Part shown: positions 2,992 to 11,691 of the stretch, one piece after another
Layout of the letters: each line of letters begins with the position of its first letter
How positions within the stretch are numbered: position 1 is the stretch's first letter
DNA from: a virus
Length of the DNA: 48,088 nucleotides
IMG/VR virus record: IMGVR_UViG_3300031576_000078
Location: 1 to 48,088 of that record
Reading direction: 5' to 3' (one strand)
Made by a program: the position numbers and the translations under genes
Notes under the pieces: generated by a model
Told to the model about the DNA's origin: nothing
What the model saw: only the letters and a program-made list of their open reading frames with translations
The model's database searches: none

Positions 2992-3179
2992 TCCGCGTCC
3001 GAGACGTCGTCGTGGCCAGCGCCCGGGAGCGTGCCTGGACCCGCGTCCGCGAGTGCGTCAGGGCGCGCGTCAGGGAGCGCGTCAATGTGCGCATCTGGGA
3101 CCGCGCCTGGGATCGCGTCTGGACCCGCGTCTATGCCCGCCTCGTGAACCGCGTCGGGGGGCGCGTCTGGATCGGGTAA
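2988..3179 (+). CDS. R-V-x-x tetrapeptide-repeat protein C
   Basis: 63 residues, starting in the ATGA overlap with the transglycosylase stop. The pattern is the same as genes A and B (RVRE RVNV RIWD RAWD RVWT RVYA) but the DNA is diverged, so this copy is older. The N-terminus has a less regular stretch (V-V-V-A-S-A). It lies in the same operon as A and B, flanking the transglycosylase. Function unknown. Confidence 0.6.
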   Translation: MIRVRDVVVASARERAWTRVRECVRARVRERVNVRIWDRAWDRVWTRVYARLVNRVGGRVWIG

Positions 3180-4585: not shown

Positions 4586-4653
4586 GTCATCGGGTCTGGG
4601 AACGGGTTCGGGTCAGGGCTCGGGTCAGGGTGGAGGTGAGGAAGGGGCCATGA
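4582..4653 (+). CDS. R-V-x-x tetrapeptide-repeat protein D (mini)
   Basis: 23 residues (H-R-V-W-E-R-V-R-V-R-A-R-V-R-V), starting in the ATGA overlap with the Trp-rich gene. It is the only copy on this strand inside the leftward region and uses CGG GTC rather than CGC GTC, so it is diverged. Its 3' end overlaps the 3' end of leftward repeat gene E by 29 bases. Function unknown. Confidence 0.45.
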   Translation: MSHRVWERVRVRARVRVEVRKGP

Positions 4654-4786
4654 CGCGGTCTCGGACGCGGTCTCGGAGGCCGCGCCAGACCGAGCCACAG
4701 ACGCGTCGCCAGACGCGGTCCCAGATGCGGTCCTCGACGCGGTGCCAGGCGCGGGCAGAGACCGTGTCCTGGACAGGGTTAGACAC
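4625..4786 (-). CDS. R-V-x-x tetrapeptide-repeat protein E
   Basis: 53 residues if started at the GTG (4786-4784) that overlaps the terminase stop codon in the order G-GTG-TCTAA; an upstream in-frame ATG at 4828 lies inside the terminase. The repeat (H-R-V-E-D-R-I-W-D-R-V-W-R-R-V) is followed by a short Pro/Ser tail. Its place directly after the large terminase mirrors genes F and G directly before it. Confidence 0.55.
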   Translation of the reverse strand: MSNPVQDTVSARAWHRVEDRIWDRVWRRVCGSVWRGLRDRVRDRVMAPSSPPP

Positions 4787-6899
4787 CGCCGATTTCCTCG
4801 AAGCCCGGGCGGGGGGGGAGCGTGCCACCGCGGGGTTTGCGAGAGAGTCCCGTGTCGCCCACGAGGAATCCCGGGTGGCGGTCGGGGTCGGGGGGCGGGG
4901 GAGGGGCGAGGCCGGCCACGGGGTTCGAGGTCAGCCAGCAGCACAGCGCGTCGTAGCAGTTATGGGCTACAAACCCACCCGCTGCGACAAAGCCGTGGAA
5001 GTCGTGCTCCACACCCACATCCCACGCCATGGCCAACTTTCCACCGCTTCCAACCTTCCGTAGCCGCACGACTGCGTTGTGCGCGAGTGAGGCGGCGATT
5101 GCCATCTCTACAGGGTCCCTTTGCATTGCGGCTTCTGGCGGCTCGAGCGCGTGGCGAGGGACGAGCACCGTGGAAGGCAATATGTCGTCCCTGCTCGACA
5201 AGGTCGAGGTTGGCCAACCCGTTGTCAAGCGGATCTCCGTTGCGGTGGTGTATATGGTAGCCTGCTGGAATTGGGCCGAAGGCGTCACTCCATACCCATC
5301 GGTGGAGATATCCGAGACGGGCAGGGGGCCGCGTGCCGCGTGTTCTGACCATGTACGGCCGGGGGGACGAACGGAGATACCAGTGAAGCCCCCCATAGGC
5401 TTGCACCGAAGGGGAGACCACCACAGGATCTGCTGGCCGGCCCGGAGTTGGCTCGCTGGGCACCACCCATCCGGCGTCAGCACAAGGTGGTCTGGTGTAC
5501 ACTGGAGTTGCCATTCGTTCGCCTCGAGGATAACCGTCTCGGCATCATAACGAGTGACCCTCGCCGCGTCAAGCGAGGCGATAGGCACCCATCCACGGTC
5601 CGTTAAGATGGGAGTGTGCCCCGCTAGACAGTGATTGTCTCCGTTGCGGTCCACGTCCTCGAGCTTGATCTTGTCGTAGCCTAGGGCGGGCAGGGTACGG
5701 ATCAGGTTTTTGCACCGTGGGTGGACCCGCAGGCGTGGGGGCACGGTGGTGCCGTCCGGGCCTTGCGACCACGCCAGGGCGTAGTGCGCGAGGTTGAGCT
5801 TGGGCAGCCTCGAGTGTGGGCCGTGGGTGGCAGGCACCAAGGACCACGTGGATTGCGCGTCGGCTAATCCTGCTTGGAACTCATCGGCGATCGTGTGTTC
5901 GTAGAGGCCGGTGTTGTACCACATCTGTTCATCCCCGTAGATCAGGGCGCGCGGGTAGGGGCGCAGCATCGTCCCGATGCGTGCGCCCGCGTCTCGGCCC
6001 GTCCAGCCCGTGAAGTAGAGCTCGTCGGTGGCCACGAGATCCCCTTTGGGGGACTGCGCGAGGACGAGGAGGCAGGAGGGGTTGCGGTAGCCCCAGTCCA
6101 AGCCGCAGGAGACGGCCCAGTGGCCGGGCAGGGTCCAGTCTTCGGGCAGGACGTGGACCGTGGGGTTCCATTCCCGGAACACTTGGCCGACGAAGGCATT
6201 CCAGTCCCCCTCGAAGTAGGCTTTCCGTTCCGCCTCGGGCAAGGCCTTGAGGCGGTCCACGTACCAGGCGGGCAGGTGCGGGTTGTCGCCGACGACGGCC
6301 GGCAGGAAGGCGTACGCATGGCGTTGGTAGGTATCGCCCGGCCAGTCTTTGTCGATGAAATGGCTTTTGAGCCAATGGTGGCCGATGCCGCCGGGGTTGG
6401 AGGCGAGGACGTATTGCGGCAGGACCGCGCGGTCGGTGGACCGGAGGCGGGAGGGCAGCATCTCGAGCATCCAGGCGGTGAAGTCGCCGGCCTCATCGAC
6501 GGCAATCAGGCCCCATTCCGTCGAGAGGTACTGGCGGAAGTCGTCATCGGTCGAGCAGTGGCCCATTTGGAGGATGGAACCGTTCTTAAACAGGACGCGG
6601 TGACGCGAGGGCTCGTAGCGGGCCACGGCTTTGGGGAGCTCGGTGCGCAGGGCCAGGATATGCGTGGTCTCGAGCTCGATGAACTGGCGGCGCAAGAGCA
6701 GGGCGCGGAAGTTGGGGTGTTGGAGGCAGGCCAGGACGCAGTGCCAGCGCAAACTATGGGACTTGCCAGGCCCGGCCGCGCCTCCGTAGAACACGTTCGG
6801 GGCGGGGCAGGTATGGAGGGCGAGCTGGCGGTCCGTCGGGGTGTAGAGGGCGACGACCTCGCCTGCGTCGTTGGTATAGGCGACGAGCGGGTCAGGCAT
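4779..6899 (-). CDS. terL: Terminase large subunit containing an intein
   Basis: 706 residues in the precursor. The ATPase domain shows Walker A Y-G-G-A-A-G-P-G-K-S (38-47), Walker B L-I-A-V-D-E-A (131-137) and the S-N-P-G-G coupling motif (about 167-171). The nuclease domain begins at S-C-G-L-D-W-G-Y (catalytic Asp268), continues with Y-G-D-E-Q-M-W (321-327) and ends with C-Y-D-A-L (648-652, Asp650). An intein of 224 residues (424-647) interrupts it immediately before C-Y-D-A-L, so splicing is needed to form the nuclease site. The mature protein would be about 482 residues, a normal size. It packages DNA into the prohead by ATP hydrolysis and cuts it. Two repeat genes lie just upstream and one overlaps its stop. 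Confidence 0.95.
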   Translation of the reverse strand: MPDPLVAYTNDAGEVVALYTPTDRQLALHTCPAPNVFYGGAAGPGKSHSLRWHCVLACLQHPNFRALLLRRQFIELETTHILALRTELPKAVARYEPSRHRVLFKNGSILQMGHCSTDDDFRQYLSTEWGLIAVDEAGDFTAWMLEMLPSRLRSTDRAVLPQYVLASNPGGIGHHWLKSHFIDKDWPGDTYQRHAYAFLPAVVGDNPHLPAWYVDRLKALPEAERKAYFEGDWNAFVGQVFREWNPTVHVLPEDWTLPGHWAVSCGLDWGYRNPSCLLVLAQSPKGDLVATDELYFTGWTGRDAGARIGTMLRPYPRALIYGDEQMWYNTGLYEHTIADEFQAGLADAQSTWSLVPATHGPHSRLPKLNLAHYALAWSQGPDGTTVPPRLRVHPRCKNLIRTLPALGYDKIKLEDVDRNGDNHCLAGHTPILTDRGWVPIASLDAARVTRYDAETVILEANEWQLQCTPDHLVLTPDGWCPASQLRAGQQILWWSPLRCKPMGGFTGISVRPPGRTWSEHAARGPLPVSDISTDGYGVTPSAQFQQATIYTTATEIRLTTGWPTSTLSSRDDILPSTVLVPRHALEPPEAAMQRDPVEMAIAASLAHNAVVRLRKVGSGGKLAMAWDVGVEHDFHGFVAAGGFVAHNCYDALCCWLTSNPVAGLAPPPPPDPDRHPGFLVGDTGLSRKPRGGTLPPRPGFEEIGGV
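4959..5630 (-). mobile_element. Intein in the terminase nuclease domain
   Basis: Residues 424-647 of the terminase ORF have all splicing motifs: Cys1 in C-L-A-G-H-T-P-I-L-T-D-R-G-W-V-P-I (block A), T-P-D-H at 468-471 in Q-C-T-P-D-H-L-V-L-T-P-D-G-W (block B), a block F D-V-G-V-E-H-D-F-H-G-F, terminal His646-Asn647, and Cys648 as the first C-extein residue. The roughly 110-residue linker between blocks B and F is not a recognisable endonuclease in this frame. In another frame the same DNA encodes an HNH endonuclease (4960-5514). Insertion at a catalytic motif of an essential gene is typical of inteins. Confidence 0.9.
4960..5514 (-). CDS. HNH homing endonuclease nested in the intein, other frame
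   Basis: 184 residues in the -1 frame relative to the terminase ORF and wholly inside the intein. The motif L-H-R-W-V-W-S-D-A-F-G-P-I-P-A-G-Y-H-I-H-H (about residues 76-96) followed by R-N-G-D-P-L-D-N-G-L-A-N-L-D-L is a standard phage HNH nuclease core. The tail is basic. The start ATG has GAGG seven bases upstream. The stop codon TAA (4962-4960) lies in the last His-Asn codons of the intein. Both frames are open throughout. It presumably drives intein homing as a free-standing protein. Alternatives are paired frameshift errors or programmed frameshifting. Confidence 0.8.
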   Translation of the reverse strand: MATPVYTRPPCADAGWVVPSEPTPGRPADPVVVSPSVQAYGGLHWYLRSSPRPYMVRTRGTRPPARLGYLHRWVWSDAFGPIPAGYHIHHRNGDPLDNGLANLDLVEQGRHIAFHGARPSPRARAARSRNAKGPCRDGNRRLTRAQRSRAATEGWKRWKVGHGVGCGCGARLPRLCRSGWVCSP

Positions 6900-10015: not shown

Positions 10016-11691
10016 CAGGCGATCCTGAGCGCGCGAATCCAGCCGCCCGTAATGAACAGTTGGTTGGTCGCAACGGACGTTCTGGCCAAGACATGGAACG
10101 ATCCGGCGGCGCTCACATTGGTAAACACGTCGAACGCGGCCGCGCGCATCGAGGCCCCGGCCGCAGAGACGGAGACGATGGCCGAGGAACCGGCCGCGAC
10201 CGCCGACAACTGCGTCTGCCCCATGGCGACCGCCGCCGCGGCCGCTTGGGATGGCACGCTCACCGCATCCATCCAAATCTGCGTCCCACCAGGGCCCAGC
10301 GCGGGCCAGTCCAAGCCGAAGGCGACCCCACCCGCCGCCGAGGTCTGCCAATTCACGTTCCCGTTGATCTTGTACCACCCCCCGGCGCCGACCGCGACGC
10401 TCAGGCTCGTGATCGTCAAGAGCGTGGTCGCGGACACGGTGAAGGTCGCTGTCCGCGTGCGAAACAGCGTCGACAGCCCCATGGCGGAAATCTTGTTCGA
10501 GATCACGTCGCCGGCCGAGAGGGCGTTGCTGACGACATTCGACAGCACGTTCAAGGCGGAGAGTCCTTGGGCAGACACCGCCGACAGTTCGGTGGACGTG
10601 ACCGACCCCGCTGCCACTGCCGAGATACGGTTGGACAGCGCATTGAAGGCCGACTGGAGTCCGTGCGTCGCGACCGCACCAACAGAGAGAGCGGAAACGG
10701 CGGAGAGGAGGGTCGAGATCACAGAGACGTTTTGCGACAGGACGGAATGCGCTTGAGACAGGACCGACATGTTCTGCGAGAGCAGGGACAGGCCTTGCGA
10801 CAGGACCGACACGCCCTGGGAGACGGTGTCGATCCGCACCGAGAGCGCGGCGTCGCGTACCGACAGATTCTGCGACAGCACCGAGAGACCCTGCGAGAGC
10901 ACCGACACGCCCTGGGAGACGGTGTCGATCCGCACCGAGAGCGCGGCGTCGCGTACCGACAGATTCTGCGACAGCACCGAGAGACCCTGCGACAACACGG
11001 AGACGCCCTGGGAAACGGTATCAATCCGCACCGAGAGCGCGGCGTCGCGTACCGACAGATTCTGCGACAGCACTGAGAGGCCCTGCGAGAGCACCGACAC
11101 GCCCTGGGAGACGGTATCAATCCGCACCGAGAGCGCCGCATTCCCGACTGAGACGTTTTGGGAGAGGACGGACTGGGCCTGGGAGAGGACAGACAGGCCC
11201 TGGGAGAGCACGGACACGCCCTGCGAGACCGTGTCGATGCGGACGGACAGGGCGGCATCCCCGGCGGATCGCACACTCAGTTCATTCGAGAGACTCGTCG
11301 AGAGGGCAGACACCGAGAGCGAGAGTAATGCCGCGGTCGCACTGACCACGGAGACCGCATTGGACACAGTGTCGATGGCCGATTGGACATCGTCGAACCG
11401 CAACTTGGTGATCGTGGCCGCGATCTGATCGGTCGCCAGCACGGAACGCGCCGTGGTCCCTTCCTGGGCGCGCGTGATCGTGAATTGGTCCACGAGAATG
11501 CCCGTGACGCGGACGATCTCGGCGTTCGCCGGGGTGGGCATCGCCGAAGAGGCCCAGATCGTGGCATTGAACGGGGTCGCCGGGAACCGGGTCGCCTGTC
11601 CCGAGGTGACCTCCAGGGTCGTCCCCGTCGTCGGCGGGGATGGGGCGGCCGAGAGGACGCTATAGGCTAAATTGGTGATCGCATCAGCCAT
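10015..11691 (-). CDS. Tail fibre with 32-residue coiled-coil repeats
   Basis: 558 residues. The N-terminal region (about 1-100, N-L-A-Y-S-V-L, then T-R-A-Q-E-G-T-T-A-R) is of the type that joins fibres to the particle. Residues about 140-310 contain a tandem 32-residue repeat (S-V-R-I-D-T-V-S-Q-G-V-S-V-L-S-Q-G-L-S-V), four copies in perfect 96-bp register plus a variant, expected to form a trimeric coiled coil. The C-terminal 150 residues are a beta-rich head domain likely to contact the host. It sits four bases downstream of the portal stop region in the leftward operon. Confidence 0.85.
   Translation of the reverse strand: MADAITNLAYSVLSAAPSPPTTGTTLEVTSGQATRFPATPFNATIWASSAMPTPANAEIVRVTGILVDQFTITRAQEGTTARSVLATDQIAATITKLRFDDVQSAIDTVSNAVSVVSATAALLSLSVSALSTSLSNELSVRSAGDAALSVRIDTVSQGVSVLSQGLSVLSQAQSVLSQNVSVGNAALSVRIDTVSQGVSVLSQGLSVLSQNLSVRDAALSVRIDTVSQGVSVLSQGLSVLSQNLSVRDAALSVRIDTVSQGVSVLSQGLSVLSQNLSVRDAALSVRIDTVSQGVSVLSQGLSLLSQNMSVLSQAHSVLSQNVSVISTLLSAVSALSVGAVATHGLQSAFNALSNRISAVAAGSVTSTELSAVSAQGLSALNVLSNVVSNALSAGDVISNKISAMGLSTLFRTRTATFTVSATTLLTITSLSVAVGAGGWYKINGNVNWQTSAAGGVAFGLDWPALGPGGTQIWMDAVSVPSQAAAAAVAMGQTQLSAVAAGSSAIVSVSAAGASMRAAAFDVFTNVSAAGSFHVLARTSVATNQLFITGGWIRALRIA
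10791..11260 (-). repeat. 96-bp tandem repeats in the fibre gene
   Basis: The marker CGCACCGAG recurs at 10835, 10931, 11027 and 11123, exactly 96 bp apart, with high identity between copies; a fifth diverged copy with extra sequence lies near 11239. Each copy encodes 32 residues. Copy number could change by recombination and alter fibre length. Confidence 0.9.

Follow-up and report, generated by a model that had tools for sequence, protein, structure and literature searches.

Homing endonucleases of the HNH type often reside in group I introns, one of which encodes I-HmuI, and the split inteins of 'fractured genes' are accompanied by free endonucleases. Inteins are also found in the large subunit of phage terminases (TerL): in mycobacteriophages, where all of them lie in the ATPase domain, splicing was measured, as was endonuclease activity for two (Kelley et al. 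2016, PMC5050341), and AceL-TerL and GOS-TerL are natural split TerL inteins (PMC11766414). An out-of-frame HNH gene was described in the ShiLan domain, a stop-free insertion in a phage DNA methylase gene that is thought to home, in which its authors found neither the motifs nor the structure of a splicing intein, and for whose HNH, with a GTG start lacking a Shine-Dalgarno sequence, they proposed leaderless initiation (Arsenault, Gosselin, Gogarten 2025, PMC11855218). Here, an HNH gene was analysed that lies out of frame within the terminase intein of the IMG/VR virus record IMGVR_UViG_3300031576_000078 (positions 1 to 48,088, a stretch of 48,088 nucleotides referred to as the window). The locus very probably comprises two overlapping genes, one for a cis-splicing intein and one for an independently translated homing endonuclease.

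The overlap of two such frames has further partial precedents. In the deposited annotation of Hamiltonella phage APSE-1 (NC_000935 / AF157835), the DNA polymerase P45, with a polymerase-A intein, is overlapped by P46, a nuclease open reading frame (ORF) at +1; no paper was found that reads P45/P46 as an intein with an out-of-frame endonuclease. As cited in PMC11855218, the preprint 10.1101/2025.01.02.630785 concerns actinobacteriophage inteins with a 'non-canonical architecture', and Gorbalenya 1998 is referred to there where overlapping frames are called frequent. Going by these citations, some priority may belong to the two works. A literature search whose coverage left out most subscription papers turned up no account of a terminase intein with an endonuclease encoded out of frame inside it.

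Two reading frames in one terminase insertion

The terminase ORF, including the intein, spans positions 4779-6899 on the minus strand (706 amino acids; PHROG phrog_979, E=1.2e-29; phrog_2, E=3.5e-21) and is stop-free throughout. Its N-extein (5631-6899, minus), which ends in ...EDVDRNGDNH, is homologous to two terminases without an intein, those of Arthrobacter phage Jinkies and Pelagibacter phage HTVC115P. Comparison with these two proteins placed the insertion between ...EDVDRNGDNH and CYDALCCW, within the last conserved nuclease motif, the rest of which is recognisable in the sequence of the C-extein (4779-4958, minus; CYDALCCW...). The inserted 224 residues (4959-5630, minus) carry the residues of a class 1 intein, namely Cys1 (codon TGT, 5630-5628), T-P-D-H in block B and a C-terminal His-Asn (codons CAT AAC) followed by Cys+1 (TGC; HN|C). 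The match to the Pfam family Intein_splicing was weak (E=0.033) and under its cut-off. In an AlphaFold model built with 32 related inteins, both splicing halves were modelled with high confidence, with block means of the predicted local distance difference test (pLDDT) of 93-97 for residues 1-70 (5421-5630, minus) and of 79-91 for residues 181-224, ending in HN|C (4959-5090, minus). The top PDB matches to this model were inteins (Foldseek probability 1.00), in agreement with a HINT fold. Residues 71-180 (5091-5420, minus; pLDDT block means 36-68) form a domain-free linker that is predicted to be disordered and lies over the folded HNH core. The intein of the original prediction was thus recovered with its coordinates and residues, and so was its endonuclease-free linker: family searches gave no match to an endonuclease family in the splicing frame. 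The locus therefore departs from canonical mobile inteins, in which the endonuclease lies in frame between blocks B and F. It also departs from split inteins, in which the N half ends in a stop and the C half forms its own ORF; with the splicing frame unbroken, splicing would occur in cis.

The HNH ORF occupies 4960-5514 (minus; 184 amino acids) in frame -1 (=+2) relative to the intein, from an ATG at 5514-5512 to a TAA at 4962-4960 whose T belongs to CAT and whose AA belongs to AAC, the final His-Asn codons of the intein. It scores 49.5 bits against Pfam HNH_3 (PF13392; gathering threshold 24.8, E=3.1e-13), with the catalytic core at amino acids 69-106 (5197-5310, minus; HIHH...N..., the last His following afterwards), and the catalytic columns H, H, N, H are invariant across the window HNH and 31 relatives (alignment A1). 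A GAGG Shine-Dalgarno-like site (5522-5525, minus) precedes the ATG with a spacing of 7 nucleotides (nt) and a duplex energy of -7.9 kcal/mol (control median -3.1). For all of these elements, the coordinates agree with those originally predicted. The AlphaFold model of the HNH protein is mostly confident at amino acids 30-160 (5035-5427, minus) and disordered at both ends, so that the folded part of the nuclease coincides nearly exactly with the disordered linker and its disordered ends fall on the splicing blocks. Its closest solved structure, both by profile and by fold (top Foldseek match), is I-HmuI (PDB 1u3e).

Like the ShiLan domain, the window combines an out-of-frame HNH with a stop-free insertion at whose end the nuclease stops, but its host frame is a canonical intein rather than a frame devoid of splicing domains, and the nucleases start here with Shine-Dalgarno sites. 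APSE-1 differs from it in the nuclease family and the host gene. The mycobacteriophage inteins share with it their location in a phage terminase, whereas the window intein sits at the last nuclease motif and has a separate HNH frame. As in the fractured-gene split inteins, splicing domain and nuclease are encoded separately, and several relatives are split with the same HNH between their halves, but the splicing frame of the window is unbroken. The original prediction had regarded the layout as unlike that of known inteins; the out-of-frame arrangement proved real but not unique, being the commonest at this site and having partial precedents in ShiLan and APSE-1 P45/P46.

Recurrence of the nested layout

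When IMG/VR was queried with one protein at a time, either the HNH or the complete terminase, no close relatives emerged. A DNA pattern for the extein-intein junction (D-V-D-x3-[DE]-[DN]-H|C-x4-T), in which the nuclease plays no part, identified 64 IMG/VR contigs, corresponding to 52 distinct loci by tally. The HNH was out of frame in an unbroken intein at 35 of these loci (32 at +2, i.e. -1, and 3 at +1), including two that were assigned by eye (L011 and L045, the latter truncated at the contig end), and in frame at two (L021/L053; L025). Seven loci (L006, L007, L009, L017, L018, L038, L054) showed the split order TerL-IntN (N-terminal intein half) with a stop, HNH ORF and IntC-TerL (C-terminal half), and look like natural trans-splicing TerL inteins. 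One split intein without HNH (L069) had an IntN of 95 amino acids with the IntC ORF immediately after it (nt 0-588 after Cys1), and the remaining loci were mini-inteins (3/52) or remnants and copies cut by a contig end (4/52). An N half ending in a stop together with a C half as its own ORF was seen in L006, L017, L018, L054 and L069. Among named phages, the layout of the window was present in Rhodobacteraceae phage LS06-2018-MD07, and also in Tetrasphaera phage TJE1 and Acinetobacter phage Highwayman, where its position in the terminase differs slightly. In GTDB genomes, the junction pattern gave 11 matches, mostly due to chance, without a prophage of a cultured host among them; the genuine ones (L070, L072, L080) were in metagenome-assembled genomes and duplicated the inteins of L064, L017 and L033.

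IMG/VR was also searched with an alignment of seven nested HNHs, a query that may itself favour nested relatives, and the best 80 of at least 452 matches were classified. The HNH lay out of frame inside a cis terminase intein in 73 of the 80 (55 at +2, 18 at +1); four loci were of the split type, possessing the two halves of the intein without one frame open across them, three HNHs were free-standing and none was in frame. Where junctions were clear, the flanks were all terminase-like, with insertion at several points of one motif (DH|C, DHA|C, DHLMD|C, DHAADE|C). The out-of-frame arrangement is the commonest one for this terminase intein site, and the relatives have open frames rather than a -1 frame routinely broken by stops.

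A tree was computed from 106 HNH sequences (71 cis +2, 13 cis +1, 9 split, 2 in frame, 11 free). It required at least 5 changes between +1 and +2 and at least 8 between free and nested, and the split HNHs formed one group (Shimodaira-Hasegawa-like approximate likelihood ratio test, SH-aLRT, 87). Its deep branches were weakly supported, so that the direction of the frame change and of the cis-to-split change is not settled. Free-standing relatives occur beside terL or within the terminase region of the named phages PAE1, SN1, FBPa53, Poludnitsa, CL2, EauM-23, PhiSTP1 and BP10. In all of these except PhiSTP1 and BP10, the same-family HNH gene directly adjoins terL; the gene of Poludnitsa is unannotated.

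With the splicing domains of the window and of L014 as query, 18 further loci were obtained, hosted by genes among which Pfam identified DNA polymerase A and an SNF2-type helicase. Sixteen carried an out-of-frame nuclease ORF (shortened in L177), none an in-frame one, one, a polymerase-like intein (L187), was split around a GIY-YIG-like nuclease ORF and one was a mini-intein (L191). The nuclease belongs to a different family (YGGRGI...LDRIDN...ENCRW), for which no Pfam family was found at gathering level, the exception being the HNH_3 protein of L180. Out-of-frame nucleases of this type were found in loci of the L174-L190 range and in L192, L193 and L196; they are present in the polymerase inteins of Shewanella phage SFCi1, Caulobacter phage GB2A and Hamiltonella phage APSE-1. 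In L174, L179, L181 and SFCi1, the GAGG and the ATG are written within the block B codons (in SFCi1 CAC GAG GTA CTA ACA AAT G.., H-E-V-L-T-N-D). No nested ORF of at least 110 amino acids was present in the ribonucleotide reductase (RNR) intein of Vibrio phage VPMCC14 or the minor-head intein of E. coli phage KMB36.

Constraint on the two frames and origin of the nuclease product

Constraint on the splicing frame was assessed by a recoding test, in which the HNH protein and its exact codon set were fixed, synonymous codons were shuffled and the stops arising in the splicing frame were counted. For 37 distinct loci, 96.4 stops were expected and none was observed, while the unconstrained third frame contained 488 stops against 495.9+-13.4 expected; for L016, the C-terminal junction had been called too early by the script, which shortened the tested region. 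In a set from the nuclease survey, for which no in-frame C-terminal junction was required, 56 distinct loci had both blocks and 54 of them were open against 7.9 expected (third frame, 581 stops against 605+-15). The 16 splicing-domain loci gave 76 expected stops and none seen (third frame, 193 vs 185). In the reverse test, with the splicing-frame protein fixed, 225 stops were expected in the HNH frame and none was found, in loci preselected for an open HNH frame. When the intein protein of the window was fixed, synonymous shuffling left the -1 frame open for at least 183 codons in 9 of 5000 cases. Together with the HNH_3 match itself and the recurrence of the layout in dozens of independent contigs and named phages, this result places the nested frame beyond chance. 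Within the overlap, substitutions between relatives cluster at HNH third codon positions (splicing-frame second positions in +2 loci), and amino-acid identity was higher in the HNH frame than in the splicing frame in all 542 of 542 pairs (0.39 vs 0.20). Both frames are therefore under selection, with protein constraint acting on the nuclease frame, whereas the splicing frame mainly must stay open.

Start codons close to the beginning of the HNH domain pair more strongly with the anti-Shine-Dalgarno sequence (median -7.4 kcal/mol) than control ATGs that are likewise out of frame (-3.1 kcal/mol; p=2e-6), and the nuclease frame of about a dozen loci opens just 3-12 nt upstream of its start codon, which leaves little room for a frameshift site. 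These sequence features favour independent initiation, and the HNH would thus be translated from its own internal start. Its production by programmed -1 ribosomal frameshifting instead, as a terminase-intein-HNH fusion, has in its favour that the -1 relation prevails in this HNH family (71 of the 84 distinct cis loci used for the tree). However, stop-codon density alone predicts this bias: under the HNH code, the splicing frame is expected to contain mostly about 1-4 stops in the -1 arrangement and 7-12 in the +1 arrangement, so that the excess of -1 needs no special mechanism. Moreover, +1 is used by 13 loci of the HNH family and by part of the polymerase/helicase family. Together with the late-opening frames and the Shine-Dalgarno sequences, these loci led to the rejection of frameshifting as the main route and make it very unlikely as the source of the window HNH. 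An artefact is less credible still. Indels introduced near 5515 and 4965 by sequencing or assembly could have moved an in-frame HNH out of frame, since this virus contig comes from a metagenome collection and two indels suffice for one locus, but the same layout with both frames open recurs in 70-odd further contigs as well as in named phages, which refutes this explanation for the class, and the splicing-frame sequence beneath the HNH matches no endonuclease family. Equally remote is a group I or other RNA-level intron with an HNH ORF and an accidentally open 'intein' frame; HNH homing endonucleases are frequent in such introns, but canonical intein residues, a HINT fold, the presence of mini-inteins and split relatives at this site and strong selection for an open splicing frame speak for a protein-level element, and no intron was matched in Rfam.

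An explanation that is improbable, though less so, regards the nested HNH as a decaying passenger that was once mobile, with the splicing frame alone still mattering. The window HNH is short and divergent, and partly deleted copies were found in L027 and L042; on the other hand, its catalytic columns are invariant, its frame is intact across 184 codons and the HNH family is under purifying selection. The nuclease is probably a homing endonuclease that is active now or was so recently. Several observations weigh against two overlapping genes with a functional, separately initiated nuclease. The window HNH shares only 41% identity with its nearest relative and lacks the zinc-finger tail of most relatives, and I-HmuI, which itself derives from a group I intron, matches its fold weakly (Foldseek E=0.2). 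Taken singly, the window falls short of significance for the lack of stops in its splicing frame (P=0.19), which may be due to chance, and since the window is GC-rich, open overlapping frames are by themselves weak evidence. Split loci are absent from the 37-locus set because an in-frame C-terminal junction was required, a selection problem of which the survey set is free. The start-site comparison sets the best of a mean of 1.3 ATGs per locus against single control ATGs, and a strong Shine-Dalgarno sequence is absent at L056, L039 and L015. The separately initiated nested HNH gene put forward in the original prediction nevertheless finds support in its recurrence (73/80 and named phages), in purifying selection on the HNH, in the open splicing frame and in the Shine-Dalgarno starts.

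Apart from the terminase region, the window contains degenerate 12-bp tandem repeats of the CGCGTCTGGGAC type (1831-1981, 2119-2374, 3042-3170, 4592-4754), one frame of which reads like RVWDRVRE, and 96-bp repeats that are 91% alike (10763-11205) within a tail-fibre-like ORF.

Proposed mode of mobility and implications

Two overlapping genes of this kind could act as follows. Ribosomes from the terminase start would read through and yield a terminase-intein precursor, whose splicing halves would fold together across the disordered linker and excise, restoring the terminase. Other ribosomes would begin at the GAGG-ATG inside the intein, one frame off, and produce a free HNH endonuclease. The latter would cleave intein-less terminase genes close to the conserved D-x-H motif, and repair from an intein-bearing copy would spread intein and nuclease together. 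Homing on intein-less terL is indirectly suggested by the patchy presence of the element and by its free-standing kin adjoining terL. It is plausible that HNH genes targeting terL entered terL inteins more than once, in any frame that keeps the splicing frame open. As hypothesised in the original prediction, the overlap may allow splicing to evolve separately from homing.

In the textbook view, an intein has its homing endonuclease as a fused in-frame domain; here it is a separate overlapping gene, an arrangement that is the rule in the sampled phage families. There is a reasonable case that dual-frame inteins constitute a large and largely unrecognised class of phage mobile elements that prevails in these families, with unrelated nucleases (of the HNH_3 and the YGGRGI...DRIDN type) independently nested in terminase, DNA polymerase A and SNF2-type helicase inteins, several of the polymerase ones starting inside block B codons, and that natural split inteins with free endonucleases arise from this class. 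Annotation of the terminase or polymerase frame alone sees such inteins as endonuclease-free, so that the mobility of phage inteins is probably undercounted. The loci offer numerous natural cases of two overlapping frames, one of them almost free of protein constraint, and several members sit in published phage genomes and can be tested at once. They also supply new HNH nucleases and, possibly, a path from cis to split inteins, which are of use in protein engineering.
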